Origin: Glandiceps talaboti
Taxonomy: Eukaryota > Hemichordata > Enteropneusta > Spengelidae
NCBI RefSeq assembly: GCF_964340395.1
Contig: NC_135570.1
Coordinates: forward strand, 18,334,821-18,398,820
Length of the DNA stretch: 64,000 bases
Direction: 5' to 3'
In this document: positions 339 through 64,000 of the stretch, piece by piece
Layout: every line of letters begins with the position of its first letter
How positions within the stretch are numbered: the first letter of the stretch is position 1
Made by a program: the position numbers and the translations under genes
The notes under the pieces: generated by a model
What the model was told of the DNA's origin: nothing
The model's input: only the letters and a program-made list of their open reading frames with translations
The model's database searches: none

Positions 339-1095
339 AGTGTCTGGTGACAAGCGCTTGTCAGCAGCATATTGTTCTCGTGACAAGCGCCGAGCGTACA
401 TGTGTACTACAGCCTGGTCGACGTCAACATGTGCGCTAGTACTGACCCGTACCTTTGACACAATTAAGGCCCGGAATGGAGTTATACCGTCACCGTGTCG
501 TTTTCCTGTAGTAGTTTCAAGTTTCCCACCCCAGCTTTAATAGTACTTGAGATTTAATGTTTATTTCACGATTCGGCGTTTAACTTGCGCGGCCGGTGAG
601 CTGTCGTCAGCTGTATGTCATTACTTTGAGGCCATCACTGCACATGGGATAAAACAAGTAAAAAAGACCACGCAACACCACAAAAACTATACGCATTTTA
701 CCTGTCCTTCACAATAATGAATGTTATTGATGCAACAAACTTTAGTTGTTTTAGATTAATTACCTTTACTGTTTACACGTTGCACGTAGTACTACATCAC
801 ATACGCGGCCATGGCCATGGAGCATATAGGCGGTGAAGTGTACATGTAATGTGTGTACGCGGCGGACTTCGCGGTTGTTGGAAAAAACAGGAGCTATCAC
901 ACGTAAATTAACAGTTTTAAGAACTGATGGTGTTTGATAAAGTGATAAAGTGCAATCAATTTCAAGGGTAATAAGAACGTTTTACACTTGACGCCAAAAC
1001 ACATCATAATGGGTGTCAAAGGTCACGCTTGTCAGCAGCATATTGTTCTAGTGACAAGCGCTTGTCAGCAGACTCGGCCTTTAAATTAAATAAGG
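339..1095 (+). repeat. Dispersed repeat D, copy 1
   Basis: Shares an ordered set of blocks with copies near 40.84-41.60 kb and 56.95-58.63 kb: a GTCGACGTCAACATGTGCG block (about 418), a CACAATAATGA block followed by AACAAACTTTAG (about 710-745), and GAGCTATCACACGTAAATTA (about 891). It begins with a 16-bp palindrome, TGACAAGCGCTTGTCA, and a related copy of that palindrome recurs near 1052. No protein is recognisable in it. The ends are approximate and the class (MITE or other) is unknown. Confidence 0.6.
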
Positions 1096-2749
1096 CTAGG
1101 ACCTCTAACATGAACGAGGTAAAACAACAGACAAAATAAGATTATTATTGCTACCAATACTTTTAATTAACAACATTTTGGTAATTGTATTTATCGTGGA
1201 CATTTGTATCACTGGTACTGTTTACAATAATTGTGCCAAGCTAAGTTAACTACATTCCATATTTATCGTTGAAAATATTTGTGTAATAAGGTTGTGAATT
1301 TTTGACAAGATTTGATGGAATACATCATTGACAATACAGTTTGTGGATACTAAATTTGATCTCGTCAACACTACATCTGTCTATTCGTATGAAGTGTGGG
1401 TCAGGGGTCAAGGGTCGGCAAACTATGGCAGAGGGTTTCAAATATGGTTTTAACTATATGGTAGAGGAAGTGAAGTAACGGCTCCAACTGATGATACCAA
1501 CTACCGGATACTGCTGAAGTGTTTGAGACAGGAAAAACTGAAAAGTTATCAAACGTTAAAAAAGTGATAAACGGTAGCAACGCTTTTACTCGTACGTACG
1601 GGACTCCGAGGGGTATTGCGACTTCATGTGAAATGATAATATACTTTATTTGAAAGTTGTTGGGCAAACTGCATTCTTCACATTGCAGTGATATATACGG
1701 AATGCGCAACGCCACGGTTCATGAAAACTTGACACCAATACGTCTGGAACTATAAGTATATACTTAATTATAGTGATTTCCATAACGTAATGGTCGACAT
1801 ATGATTACTTGTTTTCTCTAGGTCTAATTCACCATTCTCTATACAGGATTAAGTTGCAACATAACATGATAATTCTCAGGTCAACAACAATTTGCAATTG
1901 TGTACACTTTTACAACTTTTGTCGGGTGAAAAGTTTAATTATAACCGTGGTCATGGTAGTATGTTATTCGATCAACGCACATCGATGTCTACACAAATTA
2001 AAGACTCCCCTCTGATGCAAGCTGTGATATGCAGTTGATGTGACTGGTGATTCCACGACCTTTAAACCAGTGTCACTTTCTTTCAACTGTCTTATAATCC
2101 CTAAAATTAAAGGCAAATAATTGTCAAATCAACGCTTAAAACCAGTGAAATGACAACAACTAGCACAGCATAACTTTTTGTTACTTTAAATCTCATTGTA
2201 CTTTTTAACTTATCGATTCGATATGAGAGATAGTCGTAGAGTAGGCAAAGTTAAAAATAGCCATATACTAATAGTATGTATGGACGCAATGTCTGAGTTA
2301 AACTGAGAGGCACATGATTACGCTAATGTCTGGAGTGTCGAGTCTATACAACAAAGTGTAAGAGATGACAAAACCTACCACGTTTTCGACCTCCGCAACA
2401 TTTAGATTGAGCCTTCCCCATCGTGCGTCTCTCTAACGACAACACTTCACACTTGGATCGCTGTGACTTGATCGGAAACCTGGCTGTAAATCGGTTTAAA
2501 CCGTAGAGATGAGATTGTTGGTGAAAGGGAGATGATGGTGATGGGCGCAGCTGGATGGGCGGGGTCGAGGACCAGGGACGGACACGTAATACGTCTTACA
2601 GTCTAGCCACTCCTATCCAAATGGCATGCCTTTGTCATGTGTAGAGTGGGGTCGACGATAAATGATCCGAAAGATGAGAACATGGCCAGCATTATTCATT
2701 TATTAGTTTCGCAATGGCAACCTCCTTGAAATACGCATTGACATTTATA
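1096..2749. other. Unassigned non-coding stretch
   Basis: No repeat family, RNA gene or convincing exon seen. Open frames here are short, with no supporting splice sites or recognisable motifs. Confidence 0.5.
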
Positions 2750-2792
2750 CACACATTATTCACACATTATTCACACATTTATACACACATAT
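2750..2792. repeat. Short ACACATTATTC minisatellite
   Basis: Imperfect tandem copies of TATACACACATTATTCAC abut the left edge of the large satellite. Confidence 0.7.
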
Positions 2793-5700
2793 ATGACAGC
2801 ATTTCTAGTAGGTAAACAGTGGAATGACACCCTTTTCTACATTCAGTTAGTTGAATGACACCCTCTGCACTGTAAAACCAGTGGAATGACAGCCACCACT
2901 CTATAAAATAAGTGGAATGACAGCATTTTCAATGCTTTGGAACTGGAATGACAGCATTTCTAGTAGGTAAACAGTGGAATGACACCCTTTTCTACATTCA
3001 GTTAGTTGAATGACACCCTCTGCACTGTAAAACCAGTGGAATGACAGCCACCACTCTATAAAATAAGTGGAATGACAGCATTTTCAATGCTTTGGAACTG
3101 GAATGACAGCATTTCTAGTAGGTAAACAGTGGAATGACACCCTTTTCTACATTCAGTTAGTTGAATGACACCCTTTGCACTTTAAAACCAGTAGAATGAC
3201 AGCCACCACTCTATAAAATGAGTGAAATGACAGCATTTTCAATGCTTTGGAACTGTAATGACAGATTTTACAGTGGGTAAATAGTGGAATGACAACCTTT
3301 TCTGCATTTAGTTAGTTGAATGACACCCTCTGCACTGTAAAACCAGTAGAATGACAGCCGCCACTCTATAAAATGAGTGAAATGACAGCATTTTCAATGC
3401 TCTGGAACTGGAATGACAGATTTTACAGTGGGTAAATAATGGAATGACACCCTTTTCTGCATTCAGTTAGTTGAATGACACCCTATGCACTGTAAAACCA
3501 GTAGAATGACAGCCGCCACTCTATAAGATAAGTGGAATGACAGCATCTTCAATGCTTTGGAACTGGAATGACAGCATTTCCAGCATGTAAACAATGGAAT
3601 AACATCCCTTTCTACATTCAGTTAGTTGAATGACACCCTATGCACTGTAAAACCAGTGGAATGACAGCCACCACTCTATAAAATAAGTGGAATGACAGCA
3701 TTTTCAATGCTTTGGAACTGGAATGACAGCATTTCTAGTAGGTAAACAGTGGAATGACACCCTTTTCTACATTCAGTTAGTTGAATGACACCCTCTGCAC
3801 TGTAAAACCAGTGGAATGACAGCTGCCACTCTATAAAATAAGTGGAATGACGGCATTTCCAATGCTTTGGAACTGGAATGACAGCATTTCTAGTAGGTAA
3901 ACAGTGGAATGACACCCTTTTCTACATTCAGTTAGTTGAATGACACCCTCTGCACTGTAAAACCAGTGGAATGACAGCCGCCACTCTATAAAATAAGTGG
4001 AATGACAGCATTTTCAATGCTTTGGAACTGGAATGACAGATTTTACAGTGGGTAAATAGTAGAATGACACCCTTTTCTACATTCAGTTAGTTGAATGACA
4101 CCCTCTGCACTGTAAAACCAGTGGAATGACAGCCGCCACTCTATAAAATAAGTGGAATGACAGCATTTTCAATGCTTTGGAACTGGAATGACAGATTTTA
4201 CAGTGGGTAAATAGTAGAATGACACCCTTTTCTACATTCACTTAGTTGACTGACACCCTCTGCACTGTAAAACCAGTAGAATGACAGCCACCACTCTATA
4301 AAATGAGTGAAATGACAGCATTTTCAATGCTTTGGAACTGGAATGACAGATTTTACAGTGGGTAAATAGTAGAATGACACCCTTTTCTACATTCAGTTAG
4401 TTGAATGACACCCCTGCACTGTAAAACCAGTAGAATGACAGCCGCCACTCTATAAGATAAGTGGAATGACAGCATCTTCAATGCTTTAGAACTGAAATGA
4501 CAGCATTTCCAGTATGTAAACAGTGGAATAACACCCCTTTCTACATTCAGTTAGTTGACTGACACCCTCTGCACTGTAAAACCAGTGGAATGACAGCTGC
4601 CACTCTATAAAATAAGTGGAATGACAGCATTTTCAATGCTTTGGAACTGGAATGACAGCATTTCTAGTAGGTAAACAGTGGAATGACACCCTTTTCTACA
4701 TTCAGTTAGTTGAATGACACCCTCTGCACTGTAAAACCAATAGAATGACAGCCACCACTCTATAAAATGAGTGAAATGACAGCATTTTCAATGCTTTGGA
4801 ACTGGAATGACAGATTTTACAGTGGGTAAATAGTGGAATGACACCCTTTTCTGCATTTAGTTAGTTGAATGACACCCTCTGCACTGTAAAACCAGTAGAA
4901 TGACAGCCGCCACTCTATAAAATGAGTGAAATGACAGCATTTTCAATGCTTTGGAACTGGAATGACAGATTTTACAGTGGGTAAATAGTGGAATGACACC
5001 CTTTTCTGCATTCAGTTAGTTGAATGACACCCTCTGCACTGTAAAACCAGTAGAATGACAGCCGCCACTCTATAAGATAAGTGGAGTGACAGCATCTTCA
5101 ATGCTTTGGAACTGGAATGACAGCATTTCCAGTATGTAAACAATGGAATAACACCCCTTTCTACATTCAGTTAGTTGAATGACACCCTATGTACCGTAAA
5201 ACCAGTGGAATGACAGCCACCACTCTATAAAATAAGTGGAATGACAGCATTTTCAATGCTTTGGAACTGGAATGACAGCATTTCTAGTAGGTAAACAGTG
5301 GAATGACACCCTTTTCTACATTCAGTTAGTTGAATGACACCCTCTGCACTGTAAAACCAGTGGAATGACAGCTGCCACTCTATAAAATAAGTGGAATGAC
5401 AGCATTTCGAATGCTTTGGAACTGGAATGACAGCATTTCTAGTAGGTAAACAGTGGAATGACACCCTTTTCTACATTCAGTTAGTTGAATGACACCCTAT
5501 GCACTGTAAAACCAGTGGAATGACAGCCACCACTCTATAAAATAAGTGGAATGACAGCATTTTCAATGCTTTGGAACTGGAATGACAGATTTTACAGTGG
5601 GTAAATAGTAGAACGACACCCTTTTCTACATTCAGTTAGTTGAATGACACCCTCTGCACTGTAAAACCAGTAGAATGACAGCCACCACTCTATAAAATGA

Positions 5701-7943
5701 GTGAAATGACAGCATTTTCAATGCTTTGGAAATGGAATGACAGATTTTACAGTGGGTAAATAGTGGAATGACACCCTTTTCTGCATTCAGTTAGTTGAAT
5801 GACACCCTCTGCACTGTAAAACCAGTAGAATGACAGCCGCCACTTTATAAGATAAGTGGAATGACAGCATCTTCAATGCTTTGGAACTGGAATGACAGCA
5901 TTTCCAGTATGTAAACAGTGGAATAACACCCCTTTCTACATTCAGTTATTTGAATGACACCCTCTGCACTGTAAAACCAGTGGAATGACAGCCACCACTC
6001 TATAAGATAAGTGGAATGACAGCATCTTCAATGCTTTAGAACTGAAATGACAGCATTTCCAGTATGTAAACAGTGGAATAACACCCCTTTCTACATTCAG
6101 TTAGTTGACTGACACCCTCTGCACTGTAAAACCAGTGGAATGACAGCTGCCACTCTATAAAATAAGTGGAATGACAGCATTTTCAATGCTTTGGAACTGG
6201 AATGACAGCATTTCTAGTAGGTAAACAGTGGAATGACACCCTTTTCTACATTCAGTTAGTTGAATGACACCCTCTGCACTGTAAAACCAATAGAATGACA
6301 GCCACCACTCTATAAAATGAGTGAAATGACAGCATTTTCAATGCTTTGGAACTGGAATGACAGATTTTACAGTGGGTAAATAGTGGAATGACACCCTTTT
6401 CTGCATTTAGTTAGTTGAATGACACCCTCTGCACTGTAAAACCAGTAGAATGACAGCCGCCACTCTATAAAATGAGTGAAATGACAGCATTTTCAATGCT
6501 TTGGAACTGGAATGACAGATTTTACAGTGGGTAAATAGTGGAATGACACCCTTTTCTGCATTCAGTTAGTTGAATGACACCCTCTGCACTGTAAAACCAG
6601 TAGAATGACAGCCGCCACTCTATAAGATAAGTGGAGTGACAGCATCTTCAATGCTTTGGAACTGGAATGACAGCATTTCCAGTATGTAAACAATGGAATA
6701 ACACCCCTTTCTACATTCAGTTAGTTGAATGACACCCTATGTACCGTAAAACCAGTGGAATGACAGCCACCACTCTATAAAATAAGTGGAAAGACAGCAT
6801 TTTCAATGCTTTGGAACTGGAATGACAGCATTTCTAGTAGGTAAACAGTGGAATGACACCCTTTTCTACATTCAGTTAGTTGAATGACACCCTCTGCACT
6901 GTAAAACCAGTGGAATGACAGCTGCCACTCTATAAAATAAGTGGAATGACAGCATTTCGAATGCTTTGGAACTGGAATGACAGCATTTCTAGTAGGTAAA
7001 CAGTGGAATGACACCCTTTTCTACATTCAGTTAGTTGAATGACACCCTATGCACTGTAAAACCAGTGGAATGACAGCCACCACTCTATAAAATAAGTGGA
7101 ATGACAGCATTTTCAATGCTTTGGAACTGGAATGACAGATTTTACAGTGGGTAAATAGTAGAACGACACCCTTTTCTACATTCAGTTAGTTGAATGACAC
7201 CCTCTGCACTGTAAAACCAGTAGAATGACAGCCACCACTCTATAAAATGAGTGAAATGACAGCATTTTCAATGCTTTGGAAATGGAATGACAGATTTTAC
7301 AGTGGGTAAATAGTGGAATGACACCCTTTTCTGCATTCAGTTAGTTGAATGACACCCTCTGCACTGTAAAACCAGTAGAATGACAGCCGCCACTTTATAA
7401 GATAAGTGGAATGACAGCATCTTCAATGCTTTGGAACTGGAATGACAGCATTTCCAGTATGTAAACAGTGGAATAACACCCCTAAATTTCTACATTCAGT
7501 TATTTGAATGACACCCTCTGCACTGTAAAACCAGTGGAATGACAGCCACCACTCTATAAAATAAGTGGAATGACAGCATTTCCAATGCTTTGGAACTGGA
7601 ATGACAGCATTTCTAGTAGGTGAACAGTGGAATGACACCCTTTTCTGCATTCAGTTAGTCGAATGACACCCTCTGCACTGTAAAACCAGTGGAATGACAG
7701 CCACCACTCTATAAAATGAGTGGAATGACAGCATTTCCAATGCTTTGGAACTGGAATGACAGCATTTCTAGTAGGTAACTGAGTGGAATGACACCCTTTT
7801 CTACATTCAGTTAGTTGAATGACACACTCAGCACTGTAAAACCAGTGGAACGACAGCCGCCACTCTATAAAATAAGTGGAATGACAGCATTTCCAATGCT
7901 TTGGAACTGGAATGACAGCATTTCCAATATCTAAACAGTAGAA
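2793..7943. repeat. 155-bp satellite with 31-bp subunits
   Basis: About 33 monomers. In the monomers at 2912-3067 the starts of the GGAATGAC-type subunits fall at 2912, 2943, 2974, 3005, 3036 and 3067, exactly 31 bp apart. Five diverged subunits therefore make a 155-bp monomer. Each subunit begins with a variant of GTGGAATGACA followed by a subunit-specific tail. The minus-strand open frames inside it (such as 3676-3915, 5225-5464 and 6775-7014) are repeat artefacts: their spacing is simply the higher-order period. Confidence 0.95.
4447..7486. repeat. 1550-bp higher-order duplication in satellite
   Basis: The segment 4447-5936 recurs at 5997-7486 with a 1550-bp offset, which is ten 155-bp monomers. 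In the portions I compared the two are almost identical; one visible difference is a T-to-A change at 6792. The match stops near 7486, where the right copy has an AAAT insertion. A more diverged related block lies further left, near 3676. Confidence 0.85.
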
Positions 7944-8020
7944 CGAACAAACGAATGAATGAACAAATGAATGAACGAATGAATGAATGAATGAATGAAT
8001 TAATTAATTAATTAATTTAC
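7941..8020. repeat. GAAT/GAAC microsatellite then ATTA run
   Basis: Tetranucleotide tract of GAAC and GAAT units running into an ATTAATTA tract, directly against the right edge of the 155-bp satellite. Confidence 0.85.
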
Positions 8021-8915
8021 CCATTATTTATCTAGAATTCTAAATGGGAGCTTTGTCCGAGGATAGTTACCAATTCGACAGAATGTATTAGAAAATATTG
8101 GCATTGTGTTTGTGTAACAGTTTTACATGAATTTGTCAGATTCGTCGCCACTGATATGAATCGATTTGACTTATAATCGAGTATATAATCGAGTTATGGT
8201 TTATGCCATGTTTAAAACCTATAATAGGCAAATGAACAAATTTAGGTCAAACCAATGTTAATGGTCCAAGCAACAGATGGGAAAGTGATCCTTCCAAATT
8301 GTGACCCTTCCTCCTTGAATAACTTCTCCCCGGCTCCTGTCCCTTTCTCACAAATATTTAATCTTATTGTCATATCAATTAAATCAGTATTTATATTTTT
8401 CTAATATTGAATTTCTGGAATATTTCATTATAGCACAGTCCAATGTTGTTTGGTCACTAGATATAAAGTTACAAAATTTCTTGTATATTTACAGACTTAA
8501 AGACAATTAACAGCACACTTGTAATAAAATTTTGTAATAAAATTGCCGACATTTGTAATAAACGGCCGACATTTGTACATTTGTAGTAACATTGCCGACA
8601 TCTTAAAGCTGATTTTTGAAATTTTAAAGAACAGTATTTGCATATAAATTGTCGATATTAAAGTATGATCGTAATCCTGCATGCCAGGAAGTTTTGCACC
8701 GATATTTGGCACCAAAAAGGACACACGGCGATATCTTTATGTATCTACTTCTGTGATTCAAATCCAACATTCTTTCTTTAACTATCAGAGTTTATCATTG
8801 GTTGGCCTATCATAGGCTTGACAACGGTGGTAATTTGTCCCCTAATGCATGGCAGTTAACCTATTAGTTGCAAAATCGCTGTTTATGTTTTCTAGAGAAA
8901 TTGGATTACTTGATG
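8021..8915. other. Unassigned stretch
   Basis: AT-rich, with short local repeats of TTTGTAATAAA near 8520-8560. No gene or mobile element recognised. Confidence 0.5.
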
Positions 8916-9229
8916 GTCAAAATAATTTATTATTTATGGGGGGGGGGGGTCGGAGGAATTGGTTAATAAGAAGTGGAAATTCAACTGCCCCCCCCCCCCC
9001 CCCATCCTGCAGGGAAAAAATCAATGACCCCCCACCTGACTTTAGAAATTGGGATGACCCCCCCCTCCCCGTTTCCATTATATACATGGAGTGGTGGGTA
9101 TTAAAGAGAGGAAATTATATTATTTATATTGCTACAATTGTATTATTAATGATTACTGGGGTACTTACAAAACAACTTCATTTCAGTAAGAATACTTGTT
9201 AAGAGCATTCCGCCATGAGCTAGCTCTTC

Positions 9230-14445: not shown

Positions 14446-14454
14446 GGTTACATC
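14446..14454 (+). repeat. Left target-site duplication of P-like transposon
   Basis: GGTTACATC, identical to 23632-23640 immediately outside the right TIR. Confidence 0.85.
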
Positions 14455-14490
14455 ATAGACCCTACACCAACAGGATACGCAACTGCGGCA
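14455..14490 (+). repeat. Left terminal inverted repeat (36 bp)
   Basis: Begins ATAGACCCTACACCAACAGG and ends GCAACTGCGGCA. It is the exact reverse complement of 23596-23631. Confidence 0.93.
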
Positions 14491-14680
14491 TTTCCTTAGT
14501 ACCGAACTCTGTTGGAATAAATTAATTTTGATTAATCCGCTTATTATAGCGGTAATGGACACTTCCTGTCAACGGGGTAAAAAACTGGCGACGCCAGCGA
14601 AATCGCACGTACAATCTCGCAAAAGGCGAGAAGAGATTATGCGCGGTTATGCTAATTTATGTTAATGATCACAACAAATC

Positions 14681-16881
14681 ATGGCGTCTTCCAGTGAAGA
14701 ACATGACTTTTCTGGTGTCTTCGACGACAATTTTGATTTTAGTGAGTTAGATTTGTCAGATGACGATGACTGGGGTTCTGTAGACGTTGCAGAAAAAGAC
14801 GACGAAGAAAAGGTCCCGAAAAGAACCAAACGACGCGATCTTTCGTACCTCGAACAACACATGACAACAAATGAAAGTAATGATGCTGTGATTGTGAAGA
14901 CTTTCACTTGCGACGTGTGTAGTAAGGTTTTCAAAACCAAACCAAGTTGTAAGAACCATCTGCTAAAGGGACACGAACTTGAAGGTAGGAATACGTTGCC
15001 ATTTACGATGTGAGTGTTATCTTGAATGAGTCGTACTTGAAATGTTGTATGTTATTTGCAACTGTTGCTTGCCTGAAATCGCCTCGAGACATGTTTTGTC
15101 ATTACCGGTAGTAGAAATACGTCTTGCCACTCCGTAAATCAGAGGCAAACCAAAAACAATGCCATTCCAATGTGACGCATGTTTTCACCTGGCTTATCCA
15201 GTCGTCGTACGTTTTCAGATTGAATTCACACATGAATCTTATTTAATGTTCATAAACGTTGAGTATAAATTGCTCTAAATATTGACGTTCCTAGTCAATG
15301 GTAACCTGTGTGAAATGTCTAACTTTCATTGCCATAAAAACAAGTATAGCTCCTCATAATATGACACTAATGTTTGATAATGTACGGTGTCTTTAATTAT
15401 TCACTAATTTATGACTTGTATTTTTATACATACAGATCCAAAGTCAGAGAGATGTTCAAGTCCCCAGCATACTGGCAATAATAAATCCAAGAAAAGAACT
15501 GGTGAGTTTGTTCTCTACAATTAACAATTTAATAACAGGAACAATGTACATGGTTTATAAATTATGGCAATCAAGCCCCTTTTATACATATATATAAAAT
15601 GTGTCTGTGTATACCTGGAAATATATATAAATTCAGTAATTTCATGTCTATACTGGAATAAAAAGTACTCAATACACATGTATGTAGCTGAATATAAATA
15701 ATACAGTAAGATACACCTGTAATAGCGTGAAAACACTGTGTGTAACAGCTCTTGGGTATCTTACTTGATATTGTATTTATATTTATTCATATATATACTA
15801 GTAACTAAACAGTAACCAGTATACTAATTTCAAATATTAATATTCAGTTTTTTATTATTTTTTTTCAGTCAAAGTGCGACCTACATTTAACTATTCAAAG
15901 CAAGATGCTCTTGAAGACAGCGTATTTTTGTTAAAGAAAGCATTGACGAATGTGATGAACAAGCCAATCATTAAGACTGGAAGAAACATCCTCGGTGTAC
16001 CATCTGTGATTCAGATGGTTTCCAAGCTCCAGGATATGACTCTGAGTTCCCCAGACAAAGCGAACCTGTGTATGCAACACATCATTGATATCTTGTGGCC
16101 TGCCATTACTGCAGGGGACAAGGGATTCCTGGGCTGTGCACATCGGGAGACTATTTACAAGTCATACCATGAAATTCGTACATCAGGGAAACTTCATCAG
16201 GCAATGAGGTCCATGTGTGCTGAAGCAGAAGTAAAGTCCAGTACTATGAATCGAGACTGTAGTGTTGTGTCCAATGTAATTTTTGAAACACTCCTACTAC
16301 GTAGAGAGGAATGTGATACACCACATGAAGAAGAAAACAGTGCGGTAGTGATGGACAAGGTGGAGGAGAACGTTTTAAGATATGCTTGTGGATACATACC
16401 AATGGCACTGACGAAACAACTGAGAAAACGTGGGCCATCAGTCTCCCCCCTAATTGATTGTTTGTCAGGCATGAGGTGTACCACAGAACTGTCAGATTCA
16501 TTTCTTTCTTATACAACTGAGTGGGTTGATAAAGAAAATAGAGGGGGTCTTCATGTTGTGAACGACAAGTCCTATATATTCTTCAGGACAGTAGAGAGTA
16601 TTTTTCGCAAGAAATTTAGAGTAGATATTGCAAATATTCGTGACAGTGTTATCGATGATGTATTAGCTGATAGACTTGCCTTATCACGTTGGGCTGTCCT
16701 AGCATCTTGCCTAAATGAAAACCAGTCCATTGCACTATTATCAATGTGTGTGAAGTTATGGGTGAACATACGCTGTCATTCTATGGCCAAACGAATTATT
16801 CAGCAACATAAAGTGAAAACAGGGATTTCCCAGTGTGGGAATAAAGGGTTGAGGAAAGGGTTGAAAGAAATCAGCGGATAA
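14681..16881 (+). CDS. C2H2 zinc-finger partner gene of P-like transposon
   Basis: Three coding exons, 14681-14984, 15436-15501 and 15869-16881, join in frame to give 460 aa and a TAA-type end at 16881. Borders are GAAG|GTAGGA, TACAG|AT, ACTG|GTGAGT and TTTTCAG|TC. Residues 1-50 are very acidic and then basic (KVPKRTKRR). A single C2H2 finger occupies about 75-98 (C77, C80, H93, H98; spacing C-x2-C-x12-H-x4-H). Residues 125-460 form an alpha-rich region with no domain I can name; landmarks are LRYACGYIPMALTKQ and a C-terminal lysine-rich tail. Similar uncharacterised proteins with a RYxxGYxP block exist in invertebrates, but I recall no assigned function. AATAAA signals lie at 17070 and 17187. 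Its position between the TIRs, tail to tail with the transposase, suggests a transposition accessory or end-binding protein (inference). Confidence 0.85.
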
Positions 16882-17069
16882 GTGAAATTATTTTCCAATA
16901 TGAAATACCAGTAAAACAATTTCAACTTGTGGTTATATTTTTACAATATTTTTTTTCAATGAAACACCAGTGAACCATACTCTGTTGTAATGTAAATTTT
17001 ATTGCAATTTTATTTTAATGTAAATTTTATTTCAACCTCTGGTATTATTTTTATAATGTGTGTTTTTCA

Positions 17070-17192
17070 AATAAAACTGTGAACCATACCCTGTCATAAT
17101 ACATCAGTTGGCTGTTCCTTTGTATGATTTTCCCCTACACACTTTAATTAATGATAATAATTTGTAATACATTTTGTTAACTAAAGAATAAA
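17070..17192 (+). terminator. Polyadenylation signals for the C2H2 gene
   Basis: AATAAA at 17070-17075 and 17187-17192, 190-310 bp after the stop codon. Confidence 0.6.
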
Positions 17193-17260
17193 ATTGTGAT
17201 TTTATCATGAAATGAGTGTTTTTTGTGTCCTCACAAATGACTGAAAGACAACAACACAAT

Positions 17261-17490
17261 AATTCACTATTTACAATTGAAAAAATTGGTTGAAAATATA
17301 AAGTTCCCTGGTCTCAGTCAATTCTATTTGTGAACAAAATTTATTGCACGCCTGTATATACAAACTCATTCCTATAATTCACTATTTACAAATGAAAAAA
17401 TTGGTTGAAAATATAAAGTTCCCTGGTTTCAGTCAATTCTATTTGTGAACAAAATTTATTGCACGCCTGTATATACAAACTCATTCCTAG
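17261..17490. repeat. 115-bp tandem duplication between the two genes
   Basis: 17261-17375 is repeated at 17376-17490 with very few differences (ACAATTG against ACAAATG, GGTCTC against GGTTTC). Each copy carries, on the minus strand, an AATAAA signal (17340-17345 and 17455-17460) downstream of the transposase stop, so the transposase 3' end signal is doubled. Confidence 0.9.
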
Positions 17491-17645
17491 TCCAGATGCC
17501 AACATGGCCAGTAACTAAAGCACATCTAGTCAAAGTCCCCCAATCAACAAAATATGTTGTTCATCCAATCAGTAAACCACAAGTGCTATGGCGACATAAC
17601 AAGTAGCATTAAATGATTTAATAACTGTCCCAATATTGTCCGTTT

Positions 17646-20600
17646 CTAACGTCTCCTGGGTAATGGTGTGTCATCGATACATCTCTCTGCTATTGTCTGT
17701 ACATTAGCTCCTTTGATCCTCAGTAGAGATGAGCTTTTCATACGGAGAGAGTTTGAGTTTTGGTTGAATTGTTGTACTGTCGGGGCTTCGTTTCCCCCTT
17801 TCATCTGTCGATGATTTCCAAAGTAAGATTCCAGGGGATCTTGATTAAATTTTTCCGAGAGGACAGATGTAATACCTGGTACTCCAAGCAGATATGACGT
17901 GACTTCCACAAATGACTTAACTGTATTTAAAAAAAAACATACACACACTTTAGCAACAACAGTCTGGTGGAGCAATTGTAGTGGGAAAACATATTTAGAG
18001 GTAATTACAAATGCAGATCTACAGTAGACATTTTTCACCTCACCCACTGTAATATGACAACTTAAAAGTCTTAGGCGGGCTGAAAGACTGTAAGACTGTG
18101 CGTATCATGTACATTTACCTTAAGATTTTTAAGTTGTAACTCCTTGGCAAAGATTCAGCCTTGGGGCCAATTTTATCAACTTGATGTTTTGTATAATATT
18201 ACTCATGACTATTATTATATATATTTATTTACAGAACATTACAATTAAATGTTACCGCTGGGTATTTATTTGATATACAATTGAACTTAATAAAACAAAA
18301 TATAAATAATTACTTCATGTATCTGTTCATAATTTTGTTACACATCTTTGTACTACTGATTCCACTGACTCATAATCATTTTGAAAAATGAGAGTAGACT
18401 ATTGTACTTACCAGTCATAGTGAGTCCCACCACAGTTTGATGACTGAGCTTCATTTTCTGTTTCTCGCTTTTTGATAAGTTGGGACGAGCATCCACTCGG
18501 GCACTCCACTGTGTTAGGTAACCCAGGAAATCATCTGTCAGCCACTGTAATGATAAACGTAATTCCAAAACATCAGTTTCTAATCCAAATATTCCATAAA
18601 TTATATATGCATTGAAAGTGATGGCATGTCCACACAAAAATAACATAAAATATTCACATCTACAATGACAGTAGTTTCTATTGACACTTTATGCATGAAA
18701 TGTTACTCAAACTAAATATAATATAGTGACATATTGGTGATGTGTAGATATGACATAACACTGACCTGCAGTCTTGGATCGTCCACAGATTCATACGCCA
18801 TCAGGTTTGGCTTTCTCTTTCTATGACCCTCACGAAAACTTCTGACATTTAGACAATCAAAAAATTTGTCAAACATCCTGACAAATTCTACTGTTGGTGC
18901 CAGTTGCTCTCTATTACCATTACGCCCATACAGTTCAATTGCATTTGCAACTGTTGTACTCAAAACCTACAACGGAATGATGGGAAAGTACATTTTAGAT
19001 TAATGCTATGTGTCAAAGATACCATATGTAATTACAGTATGTTTATTTGATTATTGTATTTGTTTCCAAAGGTAATTCATAGATACTTATATATAATCTC
19101 AACACATACATGTATAAATGGTCACTATTGTCAATTAAATATTTGTTTAATTATCATAAATTACCTGTGTTGCATACTTCACTTTCATTCGGGCAAATGA
19201 TGTCAGGTAAATGTGCTCATATTTTAACTTGTGGCACAGGAACAGGCCTCCTCTTTCAAGATCAGCTTTGTATAATTCTTCCACTGTCTTCCACACAATG
19301 TGCTCTCCATTCTAGTAAAATCCAATTGTCAAAATGACATTAGCATCAATGAGAAGTACAATCATTTTCCATGATGCAATACCAAAAAAATATGATTTTC
19401 CTTCAACTTCTTTACCTCAGTGACATATCTAATTTAAGAAAGACTTTTGCATTATTGTAGTGTCCAAAATACTCACAATTACAGATTTTAACCCCTGAAC
19501 CTGACATGTGACAAACTTTGCATGTACACTACAGTACAAAAATGTACATGTACCTGGTAGCTAGTAAATAACAGAATAGTACAACTCACCCATAGCAGTC
19601 TCTTCTTACTGTGTGACCCAGAATTCGCCCAACAGTTCCTCGTTGTTTTTATCAAATGAGGGACATCAGAGAAGAAATAAATGTCTCTACCATCTTCAGC
19701 AAAGATATTCATGGTTTTGTACGTCACATCATTGTTCACATTTCCATGGAGTGCATAAAATCTCCGATTTGGTGAAGCTCCATCCGATGTCGAGGCAAGT
19801 ACTTTAAAACCAGCTAGTTCTAACACTTCAACAGCCTCCCATACCAGTTTAAACAGGAAATCAGAATTTATGGAATTGGTTGGGAAATGAGCAAGGGGGT
19901 AACTTAAGCGGATTGTAATACCCCTTACCATGAAGACAAGCATATACTTTGCAATCTGTGGCTCAATTCCCTCTCCTTTCATTTGTCTTTCAAAGTCAGA
20001 CAAGTGGTGGTTAAATTTGCCAATGTTTATGAACCCTACCAGTTCTCCTGAACTTTTATCGTACACTAAGTCAGCCTTTATCTTTACTTCATCGTGAAGT
20101 AAAACAACATATTTCTGATGCTCTTCAAGGTCATAGTAATTTACCTCCCTGTACAGCTGTTCAATTACATCACCACTAAAACCTGCTCCAGTTTTTGTCC
20201 AGTGAGTATAGTCTAACAGTGTCCGTTCATTTGGCAGTTGTACTACACCGGAATCTTTCATTGCCCGATATGCTGCAGATGACCGTAGCTTAATGTTCAA
20301 ACACCACTTGATGAACATTGGGTGCCATCTCATCCCACGTTTGTCAGAACAGTTGATGGCTTTCATTTGTTGTTGCCAAAATAATCTTTGGAAACTCCCT
20401 TTTTCACATTCTGTCATCACAGTGCCCTCACACTCTGCTGCTAGACTCTTCAAACTGCATGCACTTTCATCATCCAGCATAACACCATCCTCTTTAATAC
20501 TATTTACTAGTTTCTGACAAAGTCTTGATTTACTAATATCAATTCTGCGTTTCGCTTTGATAATGTTTTGTGTGCGCTGATACAATTCTTGATTTGTTAG

Positions 20601-21653
20601 GTAACACAAGGGTGCTCTGCTGCTGTGTTCTGTTTTTTCTATGTTCTCTGGAACAGCTTTTCTCTTTGAATCACGACTTAGTAGACTGAACAAAGAGTTC
20701 CGGAACACCCAGCACGCATTGCATCTTTCTTTGTCTCCATCAAGTATAAATAGGCACTGCTTTGATCTCAATGTTGACTGGAAATGTTCATTTCTTCTGT
20801 TCACTAAATCAACATCATGCCGGTAACCAATGACATCACCCATTCTGCCTATACTCAAAAAGACACCATTTCTGATATTTGCGACTTCATCGAATTTTTC
20901 TTCAGGATTTCCAATACAAAGTGTGCAGTGGTGAACAGTGTCAATGAGTTTAAGTACTATAGACACACCTGTGATTATTGATGGAAAGTCAGCCAGTGCC
21001 TTGCTGTTACTACAGTCATTACCATATATGTTGACATTCCATTGCAAAGATGACGAAATTACTACTTGTTTTGCAACTATAGTGCTACATTTGGAATCTG
21101 TGACTGTGTATAATATCTTAGTGCAGACGTCATCTGATTGTATAACCCAACCTGGAGGAAAGATACATCTCCTTACACCATCCCTGATGACTTGGTATGG
21201 TAGTTGGTAGGGAATATTTGTTCCTGGATTGGGATAGGGGTGCAGCAGTGGTGGTTGGGGTAATACACCCACAGGGTTATGTATTAATGCAGTGTTTTTT
21301 TCTACTGATTGTGTGGTGTGTTGTGGTAGGTTTGGAGCTGTATTTGTATCTGGAAGTGGAGGTTGGTTGCAGATTGCATGTATACTTGGTTGAGGAAAGG
21401 GCAACACAGAAGGTACAACATGTTCTGTGGTCACTTGATAAGATGATGGTTCACTGACTAGGGCTGGACTTGATGGATTCTGTTCTTCAACATAGATGTC
21501 AAATTGTCCCTCTTTAGTGCTGGTCTTGTTCTGTGATGGAGGAGACTTAGAATGGCATACTTGCTGTTTTGATTCCCCTTGCTGTTTAGCTGCAGCTGCT
21601 TTTTTTCTCACTACATTTTTTCTACGATATCCCATACCAAGTTTGTAAGGCAT
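17646..21653 (-). CDS. P-element-like (THAP9-type) transposase, 939 aa
   Basis: Five coding exons on the minus strand, 21653-19590, 19311-19165, 18966-18766, 18544-18412 and 17920-17646, give 2820 nt in one frame. All introns are GT/AG. A probable non-coding first exon ends at 23390 (TTTTAG|GTAAGTGC) and joins at 21664 (TTTGTAG). The protein should cut and rejoin the element's ends in the nucleus. Residues 1-155 are Lys/Gln/Pro-rich and look disordered. About 160-350 is a cysteine-containing region (C300, C311, C314). The RNase H-like catalytic core follows, with D521 (LLHDEVKIK), D624 (TSDGASPNR) and E879 (QDPLESYFG) as the likely D-D-E set, by analogy with Drosophila P transposase. DVPHLIKTTRNCW lies at 663-675. 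I see no THAP zinc finger (C2CH) at the N terminus, unlike Drosophila P and THAP9. No stops or frameshifts are seen. Confidence 0.9.
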
Positions 21654-22265
21654 TGTGGATGTCTACAAAGAGTGGAATCTGCATACAAAATTAAGAATAT
21701 AGAATTTATCATTATAGCTCAGAATAAATGTATTCAATAAATCACAACTGTCTACTGATATTAAATTGTGGAAAGATCACCCAGTACTCATATGGTAAAA
21801 ACCAACTACAGTGATATGACAAAAAGTATACACAGGAGGTATTGATAGCTGAACAAAGTTATTTCAATAACAGTATTTAATATAAACTTGAAACAATAAG
21901 AATTGTACCATGAATTGCTAAGCATTTTTTTTAAGTCATGGATGGATACATACAAGTATTATTAAAAAAAAAACTTTAAATAAGTTTAAATAATGGGGTT
22001 ACAGAGCCAAAAGAAATGTTCATACAGAAAAGAGAAAAGAACAAAAACAAACGACAACATTGAATATAAAGAATAATGTCATTAATGAACTTATACTAAT
22101 ATCATGCATCAGGTTGTCAATGAACTGGCTTATACATAACTTTTGCTCAACAACATCTACAATATAATCATTGCTGTCTTTGAAATTTAAATGTTATTAA
22201 ACGCTTTCAATTTTTGAAATAATATTTCATTACAAGGATGAAGAAACCTCCATAGTTGAACAGGA

Positions 22266-22287
22266 TGGGGGGGGGGGGGGGGGGGGG
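22266..22287. repeat. Poly-G run in transposase 5' intron
   Basis: A pure G tract inside the inferred first intron (23389-21664). Apart from this run the intron holds nothing recognisable; open frames at 22800-23148 have no support. Confidence 0.85.
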
Positions 22288-23389
22288 TATCGACCTTCCC
22301 AGTGAGTGGACTGACTGCATTCACAATGTCATACGCCATATTGAAACGAAACACCAAATACGCGTACCTTCCTTCCCACTATACCGTTTCAATGCCAAAT
22401 ATTGTATCGTTCGGTCGTAGATGCGCTATATCATGAAGCCATACAAAATATTGTAAATGTTACCATGCAATTATGGTGAAAAATGTGTAATTTTCAGATC
22501 CAGACAAGCAGACAGATAGTGGCCGACTACATGCGACAATCGCGATAAAGACCGGAAGTTTGGTACCAAACTACAAAATCAGCTGTTTATCGCGCGACTG
22601 TTGAATGAGACATTTTTATATCACTGGTCTCTTGAATTTACAGATTCAAGTACAATTTTTGTGAAGCACTTAGTGAATCAAAATTATATGTCTATGAATT
22701 TCGTACACTACTAAAATGCGGTGTATTTTTAGGCAATTCTAATAGCCCTACGCACCACATCAGCAGACGTACTACGCCCAAGAACACAAAATAGACGTAT
22801 TGCTCAACTCAAAGAAGAGAAAATGGGTTACAAATAAACTAAAAGAGCACAGTCAGAAAAGGAAATATGGGCATTACAATCTCTCGAGTCAAATTTGGAG
22901 TATTTCTCATTTTCTCCGTTTGTTCGGTCATGGTTCAACTGAGAACGGTGTAAAGTTTCAATTCCACACAGACAATCGACTAGCAACCACACATTTGAAG
23001 TGTAGTACTCAGCAAATCGTTTTGAAGACTTTTTTTTGACGAATACATCGTTTTCTGTGAATATACCAACAGCGACAATAGAGGAAAATGGCGACCCACG
23101 CATATGATGTTTACGTTTATTTTCGACGTAGTTACGAAAGCATGCCACATGCTAATCATTGAAAAACAGCCTAGATCACTAAAACGTGATACAAAGCATC
23201 AATAAATACACTCAAAATTTCAGGAATCATTTTTGACTGAGAGAAATCGGGTAACAATCATGACGAATAAAAACCCTACGTAAAGCGTACGGCAACGATA
23301 GCAAACAATAGTCAGCTGACGCAATCAATTCTTCTTTTCATGTCATAGAACAACAAAATATACACGACAAAGACGATGTATGCACTTAC

Positions 23390-23480
23390 CTAAAATACTA
23401 TATATCTTGTTGGGGTCTTCAACCAGTTGAAAACTTCGAAATGGTCGGAACATTTAGTGAAAACGACGCAAATAGCGAGC
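23390..23480 (-). promoter_or_regulatory. Inferred non-coding first exon and promoter region of transposase
   Basis: A strong minus-strand donor, TTTTAG|GTAAGT, sits at 23390/23389, 115-240 bp inside the right TIR. It fits an acceptor TTTGTAG ending at 21664, just before the start codon, where an in-frame TAG blocks any further upstream coding. The transcription start itself is not identifiable. Confidence 0.45.
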
Positions 23481-23595
23481 AACAGTCAGTGAGTCACAGT
23501 GAGTGTAAACAACAGTGATAGCGGACAGATGTTAGTTTATCTTAATTTATGCAAACACACATCGTACTATAAACATTCAAACATCCTTTGATGTT

Positions 23596-23631
23596 TGCCG
23601 CAGTTGCGTATCCTGTTGGTGTAGGGTCTAT
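23596..23631 (-). repeat. Right terminal inverted repeat (36 bp)
   Basis: Exact reverse complement of 14455-14490. Just inside it is a short hairpin, AAACATC-CTTT-GATGTTT (23578-23595 area). Confidence 0.93.
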
Positions 23632-23640
23632 GGTTACATC
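23632..23640 (+). repeat. Right target-site duplication of P-like transposon
   Basis: GGTTACATC, identical to 14446-14454. Confidence 0.85.
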
Positions 23641-44871: not shown

Positions 44872-45259
44872 GTAAAGATATGGACCCTTGTCAGCTACAT
44901 TTGTACTATCACAACCCATAAAATGATATGGACCCTTGCAGCTACATTTGTACTATCACAACCCATAAAATGATATGGATCCTTGGCAGCTACATTTGTA
45001 CTATCACAACCCATAAAATGATATGGACCCTTGCAGCTACATTTGTACTATCACAACCCATAAAATGATATGGACCCTTGGCAGCTACATTTGTACTATC
45101 ACAACCCATAAAATGATATGGACCCTTGGCAGCTACATTTGTACTATCACAACCCATAAAATGATATGGACCCTTGGCAGCTACATTTGTACTATCACAA
45201 CCCATAAAATGATATGGACCCTTGGCAGCTACATTTGTACTATCATAACCCATAAAATG
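44872..45259. repeat. 47/48-bp satellite, first block
   Basis: Eight units of GATATGGACCCTTGGCAGCT, ACATTTGTACTATCACAACC, CATAAAAT. The units are 47 or 48 bp, depending on TTGCAG or TTGGCAG. ORFs at 44990 and 45023 are repeat artefacts. Confidence 0.95.
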
Positions 45260-45265
45260 GGTAAC

Positions 45266-46514
45266 AGGACAACTGCCCCCCGGACAACTGCCCCCCGGAC
45301 AATTGCCCCCGAAGGACAATTGCCCCCCGGACAACTGCCCCCGAAGGACAACTGCCCCCGAAGGACAACTGCCCCCCGGACTACTGCCCCCGAACGAAAA
45401 AAAAACCTAGTTTGTCATTCATTAAAAAGTCACCGTCGGCATAGGCCATAAGTCAGAAATAGACTGGCGATGACGAATCTGGGCAAACATGATGTAACCG
45501 AAATTCACATGATTGGTTAGAGAAAAGTATATAATAACTTTTATGATGGCGTGATCTTATGGTGTGATTTTCTATATTTAGTTGTTTTGTAAATTCCATT
45601 GTATTGGAAGTATTCTTAAAGTGAGAATTAAACATCCAGAAGCACACGAGCACTCGGGTAGGTGAATCTGGCAAGCCGAAATCTCTTCTCAGTCGTGACT
45701 AATTCCTGACTTGGACCTGAACGATCCCGTACGAGAGTATGATAGTGTGAGTGCTAGAGTGCAACGTTAGAACTATCCATACTTATTATACCGTATATAA
45801 CTCTACGACTCACAATACCTGTATATGATATTGATTGTTGTTCAACTGATGTCTTCACTGGCGGAATACATAAATTGCCCTGAGCCTTCTGTCATGTATT
45901 GTATTCATAATTAAACAGCGTGCAATAATCGGTTATAGAGTGTGGTAAATTATTGTGTATTAAGTCGTAAACAAAAACACCTACTAAATACTTGTGTAAC
46001 TTAAACACGTCGAGAATTGTTAACTGGTTGAAAAGAGGAGAAGAATGTTCCAGAAAATTATGTGAATTACAGCGATAAGTTAAATCATCATGCCGACATT
46101 TATGAATGACGCAACAATTATCACAGATAACAACAGAGTAAAACATGTAAATGTAGTGAGTATAATGTATGCAAATTACGGCGGTAAGTTAAATCATCAT
46201 GCCGACATTTATGAATGACGTAACAATTATCACAGATAACAATAGAGTAAAACATGTGAATTGCGGCGGTAAGTTGCCGACGGTGACTTTTTAATTAATG
46301 ACCAACCCGTACATCTGTAATACTAGTTTTTTTTTCGTTCGGGGGCAGTAGTCCGGGGGGCAGTTGTCCTTCGGGGGCAGTTGTCCGGGGGGCAATTGTC
46401 CGGGGGGCAGTTGTCCTTCGGGGGCAATTGTCCGGGGGGGCAGTTGTCCTTCGGGGGCAATTGTCCTTCGGGGGCAATTGTCCGGGGGGCAGTTGTCCGG
46501 GGGGCAGTTGTCCT
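45266..46514. mobile_element. 1.25-kb element with minisatellite-like TIRs
   Basis: The left end is an array of AGGACAACTGCCCCCCGG and GACAATTGCCCCCGAAG units, then AACGAAAAAAAAACCTAG, then AAAAAGTCACCGTCGGC (to 45441). The right end (46264-46514) is the same series in reverse complement. It lies exactly within the 47/48-bp satellite, which resumes at 46520. The arms are thus about 175-250 bp and built from 15-17-bp repeats. No target duplication found. The interior contains a LINE fragment and a 110-bp tandem duplication (46069-46146 and 46179-46256). Confidence 0.8.
45892..46110 (-). pseudogene. LINE reverse transcriptase C-terminal fragment
   Basis: Minus-strand frame with HSSPLFNQLTILDVFKLHKY and then VYDLIHNNLPHSITDYCTLF, followed by EYNT. 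This is the L-x-IL-x-I...HNNLLP block common in LINE polymerase C termini. It lies inside the minisatellite-TIR element. Confidence 0.55.
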
Positions 46515-46519
46515 AGAAT

Positions 46520-48757
46520 CATAAAATGATATGGACCCTTGCAGCTACATTTGTACTATCATAACCCATAAAATGATATGGACCCTTGTCAGCTACATTT
46601 GTACTATCATAACCCATAAAATGATATGGACCCTTGGCAGCTACATTTGTACTATCATAACCCATAAAATGATATGGACCCTTGGCAGCTACATTTGTAC
46701 TATCCCATAAAATGATATGGACCCTTGCAGCTACATTTGTACTATCATAACCCATAAAATGATATGGACCCTTGCAGCTACATTTGTACTATCATAACCC
46801 ATAAAATGATATGGACCCTTGCAGCTACATTTGTACTATCATAACCCATAAAATGATATGGACCCTTGGCAGCTACATTTGTACTATCACAACCCATAAA
46901 ATGATATGGACCCTTGGCAGCTACATTTGTACTATCACATAAAATGATATGGACCCTTGCAGCTACATTTGTACTATCACAACCCATAAAATGATATGGA
47001 CCCTTGGCAGCTACATTTGTACTATCACAACCCATAAAATGATATGGACGCAGCTACATTTGTACTATCATAACCCATAAAATGATATGGACCCTTGGCA
47101 GCTACATTTGTACTATCACAACCCATAAAATGATATGGACCCTTGGCAGCTACATTTGTACTATCATAACCCAGTGTTTTTGCTAAGGTTTGGGAACCCC
47201 GGTAACAGAAAGGGGGAAAGAGGTAAAACTGGTAGTGCTTCTAATGCAATGTATCATAATTTTGGTGGGGAACCCCAGTAAAATGATGTGGGAACCCCGG
47301 TAGATTTTACCTACTTACCGCCCTTAAATAAAACACTGATAACCCATAAAATGATATGGACCCTTGGCAGCTACATTTGTACTATCACAACCCATAAAAT
47401 GATATGGACCCTTGCAGCTACATTTGTACTATCACAACCCATAAAATGATATGGACCCTTGCAGCTACATTTGTACTATCACAACCCATAAAATGATATG
47501 GATCCTTGGCAGCTACATTTGTACTATCACATAAAATGATATGGACCCTTGCAGCTACATTTGTACTATCACAACCCATAAAATGATATGGACCCTTGCA
47601 GCTACATTTGTACTATCATAACCCATAAAATGATATGGATCCTTGGCAGCTACATTTGTACTATCACATAAAATGATATGGACCCTTGCAGCTACATTTG
47701 TACTATCACAACCCATAAAATGATATGGATCCTTGGCAGCTACATTTGTACTATCACAACCCATAAAATGATATGGACCCTTGCAGCTACATTTGTACTA
47801 TCACAACCCATAAAATGATATGGACCCTTGCAGCTACATTTGTACTATCATAACCCATAAAATGATATGGACCCTTGGCAGCTACATTTGTACTATCATA
47901 ACCCATAAAATGATATGGACCCTTGGCAGCTACATTTGTACTATCATAACCCATAAAATGATATGGACCCTTGGCAGCTACATTTGTACTATCATAACCC
48001 ATAAAATGATATGGACCCTTTTGGCAGCTACATTTGTACTATCACATAAAATGATATGGACCCTTGCAGCTACATTTGTACTATCACAACCCATAAAATG
48101 ATATGGACCCTTGCAGCTACATTTGTACTATCATAACCCATAATTTGATATGGACCCTTGGCAGCTACATTTGTACTATCACAACCCATAAAATGATATG
48201 GACCCTTGGCAGCTACATTTGTACTATCACAACCCATAAAATGATATGGACCCTTGCAGCTACATTTGTACTATCATAACCCATAAAATGATATGGACCC
48301 TTGCAGCTACATTTGTACTATCACAACCCATAAAATGATATGGACGCAGCTACATTTGTACTATCATAACCCATAAAATGATATGGACCCTTGGCAGCTA
48401 CATTTGTACTATCACAACCCATAAAATGATATGGACCCTTGGCAGCTACATTTGTACTATCACAACCCATAAAATGATATGGACGCAGCTACATTTGTAC
48501 TATCATAACCCATAAAATGATATGGACCCTTGGCAGCTACATTTGTACTATCACAACCCATAAAATGATATGGACGCAGCTACATTTGTACTATCATAAC
48601 CCATAAAATGACATGGACCCTTGGCAGCTACATTTGTACTATCATAACCCATAAAATGACATGGACCCTTGGCAGCTACATTTGTACTATCACAACCCAT
48701 AAAATGACATGGACCCTTGCAGCTACATTTGTACTATCATAACCCATAAAATGATAC
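46520..48757. repeat. 47/48-bp satellite, main block
   Basis: About 45 units, with shortened units (GGACGCAGCTAC) recurring at 47048, 48344, 48482 and 48573. This indicates amplification of multi-unit blocks. Interrupted by a MITE at 47172-47338. Confidence 0.95.
47172..47338. mobile_element. 167-bp MITE inside the satellite
   Basis: Ends CAGTGTTTT and AAAACACTG, flanked by ATAACC (47166-47171 and 47339-47344). The interior has repeated GGGAACCCCGGTA words on both strands. Confidence 0.8.
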
Positions 48758-51984: not shown

Positions 51985-53152
51985 GATAATTAACTGTATA
52001 GCACAATTATTAACATACTAATAACCTGTTCAAACTGATAACTACATTGTAACTGTATAGCACAATTATTAACATACTAATAACCTGTACAAATTGATAA
52101 TTAACTGTATAGAACAATTATTACATACTAACAACCTGTACAAACTGATAATTAACTGTACATAATTATTACATACTAATAACCTGTACAAATTGATAAT
52201 TAACTACATAATTATTACATACTAATAACCTGTACAAATTGATAATTAACTGTACATAATTATTACATACTAATAACCTGTACAAACTGATAATTAACTG
52301 TACATAATTATTACATACTAATAACCTGTACAAACTGATAATTAACTGTACATAATTATTACATACTAATAACCTGTACAAATTGATAATTAACTGTACA
52401 TAATTATTACATACTAATAACCTGTACAAATTGATAATTAACTGTACATAATTATTACATACTAATAACCTGTACAAATTGATAATTAACTGTACATAAT
52501 TATTACATACTAATAACCTGTACAAACTGATAATTAACTGTACATAATTATTACATACTAATAACCTGTACAAACTGATAATTAACTGTACATAATTATT
52601 ACATACTAATAACCTGTACAAATTGATAATTAACTGTACATAATTATTACATACTAATAACCTGTACAAACTGATAATTAACTGTACATAATTATTACAT
52701 ACTAATAACCTGTACAAATTGATAATTAACTGTACATAATTATTACATACTAATAACCTGTACAAATTGATAATTAACTGTATAGAACAATTATTAACAT
52801 ACTAATAACCTGTACAAACTGATAATTAACTGACTGTACATAATTATTACATACTAATAAAATGTACAAATTGATAATTAACTGTATAGAACAATTATTA
52901 CATACTAATAACCTGTACAAATTGATAATTAACTGTATAGAACAATTATTACATACTAATAACCTGTACAAATTGATAACTACATTGTAACTGTATAGAA
53001 CAATTATTAATATACTAATAACCTGTACAAATTGATAATTAACTGTATAGAACAATTATTAACATACTAATAACCTGTACAAATTGATAACTACATTGTA
53101 ACTGTATAGAACAATTATTAATATACTAATAACCTGTACAAATTGATAATTG
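51985..53152. repeat. Second 48-bp satellite (AT-rich)
   Basis: Units of ATACTAATAACCTGTACAAA, TTGATAATTAACTGTACATA, ATTATTAC; spacing is exactly 48 bp in the core (TTACATAC at 52263 and 52311). Because 48 is divisible by 3 it creates a 198-codon minus-strand open frame (52169-52765), which is not a gene. The edge units are longer and carry an extra TATAGAAC or ACTACATTGTA. Confidence 0.95.
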
Positions 53153-61497: not shown

Positions 61498-62470
61498 AGT
61501 CCCCGCCGGATGAAGTCCGGGACGGGGACTTATGGAATGGGTTCCGTGCGTCCGTGTGTCCGTGTGTGCGTGCGTGCGTCCGTCCGCAGCCGCTTCTTGG
61601 AGATGCCTGGACTGATTTTTTTCAAACTTGGTACAGGGGCAACATACAATGGCATACATATGCACGTCAATTTGTTTCATGATACCATCCAATATGGCTA
61701 GCAGCCATTTTGTTTGTGAATTTTCCCTGACCAAAGACATAAATCAGACATGCGAGAACAAATCTCATTCAAAGTTGCTATTAGGACAGTGTTCTATGGC
61801 ATATATGTGCATATTCATTGTTGTCATGATACGATCCAATATGGCTGCCTGGCAGCCATTTTGTTTGCAAATTTTCCATGTCCAAAGCCATAACTCAGAC
61901 ATGCTTGAACAGATCTCATTCAAAGTTGGTATTAGGACAGTGTTCTATGACATACATGTCCATATTCATTTTCATCATGATACCATCCAATATGGCTGCC
62001 TGGCAGCCATTTTGTTTGTGAATTTTCTATGTCCAAAGCCATAACTCAGACATGCTTGAACAGATCTCATTCAAAGTTTGTATTAGGACAGTGTTCTATG
62101 ACATACATGTGCATATCCATTTTCGTCGTGATACGATCCAATATGGCTGCCTGGCAGCCATTTTGTTTGTGAATTTTCCATATCCAAAGCCATAACTCAG
62201 ACATGCTTGAACAGATCTCATTCAAAGTTGGTATTAGGACAATGTTCTATGACATACATGTGCATATCCATTTTTGTCGTGATACGATCCCCCATACCCG
62301 ACCAATCCTTTATTGTTGTAGGCATGTTCCATGTCCAACAAGCAGACACAACATATATCTAAGTCTGTTTGATTTAGGTCACAAGTGTTGTTGCGTGATC
62401 AGAGTAGTGATAATTCCTTAAAATCCAATCATAGCGGGGACTATGTCATTCTCAATGACTTGTTTACCAT
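61498..62470. repeat. Third hairpin-headed element with about 150-bp units
   Basis: Starts with AGTCCCCGCC-GGATGAAGTCC-GGGACGGGGACT, an inverted repeat. A CGTCCGTGTGTCCGTGTGTG-like tract follows, then tandem units anchored on CAATATGGCTGCCTGGCAGCC (61694, 61841, 61992, 62143; spacing 147-151). The ORFs at 61628-62044 and 62203 are artefacts of these units. Confidence 0.85.
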
Positions 62471-63908: not shown

Positions 63909-64000
63909 TATTAGATATATAGTACTGTTCTCCCAGTGTACCCTAGAACAAACCAACATACATTGGACAAAAAAACTACAGCATATATTGCACATGTGTA

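Follow-up and report, generated by a model that had tools for sequence, protein, structure and literature searches.

The question raised by this locus is whether the P-element-like DNA that it carries is a complete transposon able to move and, if so, what its second gene is for. The locus lies on contig NC_135570.1 of Glandiceps talaboti, within a stretch of 64,000 nucleotides that was analysed as a whole and is called the window here. Our analysis indicates that the window very probably holds a P-superfamily DNA transposon of the cut-and-paste type, apparently intact and autonomous, with two convergent genes, one of which encodes a predicted transposase. This agrees with the preliminary description of the DNA, in which an apparently intact, recently inserted P-like element was proposed, and is indicated by the terminal inverted repeats (TIRs), the target site duplication (TSD), empty sites, near-identical sibling elements at different targets and recently moved derivatives.

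Borders, ends and target duplication

The borders of the element, set from its TIRs and from other copies, are as follows.

14454..23632, no strand assigned: whole element, 9179 bp
14447..14453, no strand assigned: left target duplication, GTTACAT
23633..23639, no strand assigned: right target duplication, GTTACAT
14454..14490, plus strand: left TIR, 37 bp
23596..23632, minus strand: right TIR, 37 bp

The 37-bp TIRs are perfect at both ends and begin CATAGACCC; the element ends read CATAG...CTATG. When the end regions, 300 bases each, were shuffled 200 times, the longest inverted repeat to arise by chance was 12 nt, against the 37 bp observed. TIRs combined with a TSD of 7 or 8 bp are characteristic of the P superfamily, and here a 37-bp TIR and a 7-bp TSD were found. 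As to subterminal motifs, one 11-mer is common to both ends of the window element (0.3 expected), no 12-mer is shared by its two ends, and likewise none is shared by its ends and those of sibling A, described below.

Other copies were sought in the source genome's own assembly (590 Mb, 47 contigs). The left-end query gave at least 40 matches, right-end TIRs included, which is a lower bound on the copy number, and 28 of the 40 begin exactly at the terminal C. The flanking 7 bases were tallied wherever a script located both ends, in 13 copies or relatives in all, single-ended loci being excluded; they match exactly in 10, with one mismatch in two, and do not match in the remaining one.

Exact 7-bp TSD: window, GTTACAT
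Exact 7-bp TSD: L003, GGCACAC
Exact 7-bp TSD: L004, CTTGAAG
Exact 7-bp TSD: L005, GTTGAAC
Exact 7-bp TSD: L006, GGCCAAC
Exact 7-bp TSD: sibling A, GTATAAT
Exact 7-bp TSD: sibling B, GAGTAAC
Exact 7-bp TSD: L016, GAGATAT
Exact 7-bp TSD: L019, AACAAAC
Exact 7-bp TSD: L028, ATCACTT
One-base difference: L002 and the element nested in L025
Mismatch: L027

A 7-bp and a 9-bp duplication are not separable from the window or the empty site alone, whereas the other copies separate them: the repeat reaches 9 bp in none of the nine other copies that have an exact 7-bp TSD. The 9-bp target repeat given in the preliminary description was rejected on these grounds, together with the start of most left-end matches at the terminal C, because the element's own terminal C and G had been counted as flank. 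The same assignment had shortened the TIRs, reported as perfect repeats of 36 bp; their perfection stands, while their length is corrected to 37 bp.

The transposase gene

The predicted transposase gene consists of five minus-strand coding exons, which encode a protein of 939 amino acids; all joins are GT/AG and in frame.

19590..21653, minus strand: transposase coding exon 1 (PF21787 RNase H domain, D521, D624)
19165..19311, minus strand: transposase coding exon 2 (GTP-binding insertion domain)
18766..18966, minus strand: transposase coding exon 3 (GTP-binding insertion domain)
18412..18544, minus strand: transposase coding exon 4
17646..17920, minus strand: transposase coding exon 5, stop included (PF21789, E879)

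The protein matches three TNP-like domains of Pfam above the cut-off, namely PF21787 (3.4e-25), PF21788 (4.3e-22) and PF21789 (6e-7), and thus presents the RNase H-like transposase with an inserted guanosine triphosphate (GTP)-binding domain by which the P superfamily is recognised. In the PDB search at E <= 0.01, it matched the fly P transposase only (6p5a, 7e-17), and this alignment, with the three P-transposase Pfam domains, bears out the P-family affinity proposed for it. The residues D521, D624 and E879, which had been picked out earlier as the candidate catalytic triad, are present and align with D230, D303 and E531 of the fly enzyme, giving a complete D-D-E set (fly catalytic and GTP-contact residues as given in PMC7776569). 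Moreover, all eight GTP-contact residues are identical: K716, K731, V732, S740, F773, D774, N777 and D876, with the fly counterparts K385, K400, V401, S409, F443, D444, N447 and D528, respectively.

By the sequence of its catalytic core, the element is placed in the P superfamily, and not in the THAP-bearing branch. Just 60 transposase residues lie beyond E879, so that the predicted 939-residue protein appears to have no room for a counterpart of the fly C-terminal domain. With that enzyme as a guide, the transposase would use GTP, would pair and cut the CATAG...CTATG ends through its D-D-E RNase H site, and would join them to the target DNA with a 7-bp stagger.

Related copies, deletion derivatives and the sibling family

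Among the 32 matches listed for transposase exon 1, three stay open along the full 687 residues, namely those in the window and in two copies of a sibling family, A (C14) and B (C19). The closest relative of the window copy is C5 (L025), which has one stop in each of two matched pieces and in which element positions 5314-9179 alone match (10 kb examined). Its exon 1 differs from that of the window at 47 of 1885 bases, and the ratio of nonsynonymous to synonymous substitution rates is 0.33 (two stops counted as replacements).

Five deletion derivatives of ~1.6 kb (L002-L006) retain ~386 left and ~1213 right bases of the element. L003 and L004 are 99.81% identical over 1587 aligned bases and have different TSDs, and therefore the window family has moved recently; its present activity is suggested by these derivatives. 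The genome also contains older diverged relatives, the ends of which are roughly 73-84% identical. At L024 9795-9875 (C22), an isolated right end is identical over 81 bp, with the rest of the element unmatched (10 kb examined).

The sibling copies A and B are elements of 9454 and 9667 bp, respectively, with 36-bp TIRs that begin CATAGAC. They show 14 mismatches in 9430 aligned bases and 4 indels, their TSDs differ, and each carries two convergent genes, both open, with the exon phases of the window element; on this sequence evidence, the sibling family is recently mobile. The differences between A and B (3 in 4206 coding and 11 in 5224 noncoding bases; p 0.11) are not significantly different in distribution and were not used as evidence. 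Between the window and the sibling family, 488 of 902 aligned transposase residues are identical (54%), and the second proteins of the window and sibling A share 39% identity. Silent changes among same-residue codons of the window and A amount to 97/163 in the second gene and 283/465 in the transposase gene. As silent sites have changed while residues were kept, selection has maintained both proteins after the divergence of the two families. Two related palindromic repeats of ~350 bp, resembling miniature inverted-repeat transposable elements, were noted at L029 8074-8417 and 1230-1586, the former sitting in the transposase gene of the sibling, within intron 4.

Insertion site

The flanks of the element, joined at a single GTTACAT, gave 37 matches when used as a genome query, in a search where the best candidates only were scored. 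The joint is crossed uninterrupted by 34 of them, 33 near full length at 94-100% identity and one spanning 142-400 at 93%; two of the remaining matches are the window's own flanks, and one stops short of the joint. The best matches are identical save one missing base. C16, the one joint-crossing match that was read base by base, has GGCTTAGGTTACATCCACAATATAGCG at the joint, with one target copy and one T fewer than the window.

The transposon is inserted into a dispersed repeat, the closest copies of which are near-identical. Because the nearest copies of this host repeat are almost identical, the insertion is likely recent, provided that conversion has not homogenised the repeat copies. The recent insertion claimed in the preliminary description is thus upheld in part: the empty copies of the host repeat speak for it, but none of the transposase matches listed is a near-identical full-length partner of the window copy.

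The second gene

The second gene is convergent with the transposase gene and is predicted to consist of three plus-strand coding exons, with GT/AG joins in frame, that encode 460 amino acids. The two genes and eight coding exons (3 + 5) described previously hold as predicted models.

14681..14984, plus strand: second gene coding exon 1 (acidic N-terminus, C2H2 motif C77-C80-H93-H98)
15436..15501, plus strand: second gene coding exon 2
15869..16881, plus strand: second gene coding exon 3, stop included (conserved domain without known-fold match)

The N-terminus of the predicted protein is acidic. The protein further contains one C2H2 motif, the residues of which (C77, C80, H93 and H98) are invariant in sibling A, and a conserved C-terminal domain. 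For this main domain, Pfam, NCBIfam and PDB contained nothing credible; the NCBIfam and PDB matches of the second protein were weak zinc-finger or chance ones. Exon 3 has five matches in the genome, namely the window, A, B, C17 (one stop) and C2 (31%), and all five are arranged tail-to-tail with a P transposase or with what remains of one. At C2 (L039), transposase exon 5 was found beside the second-gene match (~1e-18), while at C17 (L040) the last 23 transposase residues only were found, with E of 8e-4 for the exon query and 0.03-0.05 for the whole-protein query. A further decayed copy (L035, C2) retains this layout, with the zinc-finger exon and a portion of the transposase. Judged from these arrangements, the second gene is a conserved component of the element. 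The preliminary description noted neither this conservation nor the lack of a detected THAP domain in the transposase. Viral contigs were searched for relatives of both proteins, and none was confirmed.

In L036, a weak match to the second gene was discarded because it passes through stops. The source genome also contains two distant P-like transposases (L037 and L038, ~25% identity); no THAP domain was found in their long open reading frames (ORFs), which were what this search covered. A 145-amino-acid ORF on the minus strand of L037 (3603-4040) is convergent with the P-like transposase there (874-3258, plus strand) and has no credible Pfam match; it may represent a different type of second gene, belonging to a separate P-like lineage. 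Within the window element, a 115-bp tandem duplication (98%) was noted at 17259-17489, in the interval that separates the convergent 3' ends of its genes.

Possible roles of the second protein

There are about even odds that the transposase needs the second protein as a partner binding the DNA of the transposon or of the target, in which case this partner would do the work of the THAP and C-terminal domains of the fly protein. We give slightly under an even chance to the wider proposal of a P-superfamily lineage with a machine split between two convergent genes, in which a GTP-dependent transposase lacking THAP and the fly C-terminal domain would act with a C2H2 partner contacting DNA, as a counterpart of RAG1L/RAG2L. 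Transposition of such elements may need two proteins.

Several observations weigh against this account of the element. The stretches of the 6p5a alignment with D521 and with D876/E879 are weak when taken alone (scores -0.8 and 5.5); both are spanned by Pfam domains. A search of both proteins and of six ORFs upstream, three on each strand, found no THAP domain (PF05485), although a THAP domain split over short exons is possible. The Pfam C2H2 zinc-finger matches of the second protein fall under the curated cut-offs. No credible related second gene was found at L036 (C15), nor any related one beside the distant L037 and L038 (5 kb examined each). Finally, the window's own family has one open transposase exon 1 among the matches listed.

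The main rival explanation is that the second gene encodes an element-borne regulator, such as a repressor, silencing antagonist or timing factor, and not a subunit of the complex, so that the transposase would work alone. This may well be so, though we give it somewhat less than an even chance. A C2H2 motif and an acidic N-terminus would suit a transcription regulator as well, and the two distant transposases lacking a related neighbour in the 5 kb examined for each also fit it. Against it, a transposase with no detected THAP domain and so short an end after E879 would be missing the DNA-contact functions of the fly enzyme, and second-gene matches accompany a P transposase in all five cases. 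It is improbable that the second gene plays no role for the element, being a host gene that was captured or a passenger. Its main domain matches no known family, which would fit this reading, but the gene has been kept in two families whose transposases agree at 54% of aligned residues, with shared exon phases and with the protein preserved while silent sites changed, and there is no free-standing host copy among the five second-gene matches. Least probable, and by our estimate very unlikely, is an old, immobile or domesticated copy retained for a host function. The single open exon 1 of the window family would fit such a copy, whereas the perfect TIRs and TSD, the empty copies of the host repeat, the deletion derivatives with differing TSDs and the sibling family with two near-identical open copies all argue against it.

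Other features of the window

The tRNA and Rfam scans of the window found nothing. A satellite array with a 155-bp unit (~33 copies, 93% matches) occupies positions 2793-7943. At 44877-48756, two stretches of one 48-bp tandem array flank a segment that ends in short arrays in inverted orientation, GGACAACTGCCCCC at 45267-45391 and GGGGGCAGTTGTCC at 46341-46514; the segment could be read as an element, bounded by repeat arrays, that inserted into the satellite. Two more satellite arrays with short units are located at 52064-53151 (48 bp) and 62463-63910 (47 bp).

Relation to known transposons

The P element of Drosophila melanogaster (6p5a/6pe2) resembles the window element in its RNase H transposase with a GTP-binding insertion, in the aligned D-D-E residues and eight GTP contacts, and in TIRs of ~30 bp or more. 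According to the part of PMC7776569 consulted, it has one transposase gene with a THAP domain and a C-terminal domain, a 31-bp TIR and an 8-bp TSD, and its transposase is said there to stand alone among transposases and integrases in its use of GTP as a cofactor. In contrast, the element described here has two convergent genes, no THAP domain found, the short end after E879, a 37-bp TIR and a 7-bp TSD. Galileo, a P-superfamily transposon of Drosophila, likewise has 7-bp TSDs in most copies (PMC4168063), but it differs in having a THAP domain and long TIRs, and the consulted part of that source mentions no second gene for it. Zebrafish Pdre2 / THAP9 also belongs to the P superfamily, and its TIR (CATACCTGTCAAC) likewise starts with CATA; it differs in its 13-bp TIR, 8-bp TSD and single THAP9-type transposase, as far as the consulted part of PMC10983969 describes it.

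A transposase gene and a gene for a second protein within one transposon are also reported for RAG-like transposons, in which RAG1L and RAG2L are convergent (PMC7204232, in part), and for PIF/Pong transposons with their two ORFs (PMC5543537, in part). These belong to other transposase families, and the likeness is one of layout alone. No two-gene P element was described in the titles and abstract beginnings found by a narrow-term literature search, and a Repbase entry is possible.

The structure of P transposase is known from one enzyme, the single-protein one of the fly. An apparently intact two-gene relative, together with its deletion derivatives and a recently mobile sibling, would allow a test of which functions can move to a partner protein. 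If the proposed division holds true, this lineage would join the RAG-like transposons as a second example in which transposase and partner genes converge.

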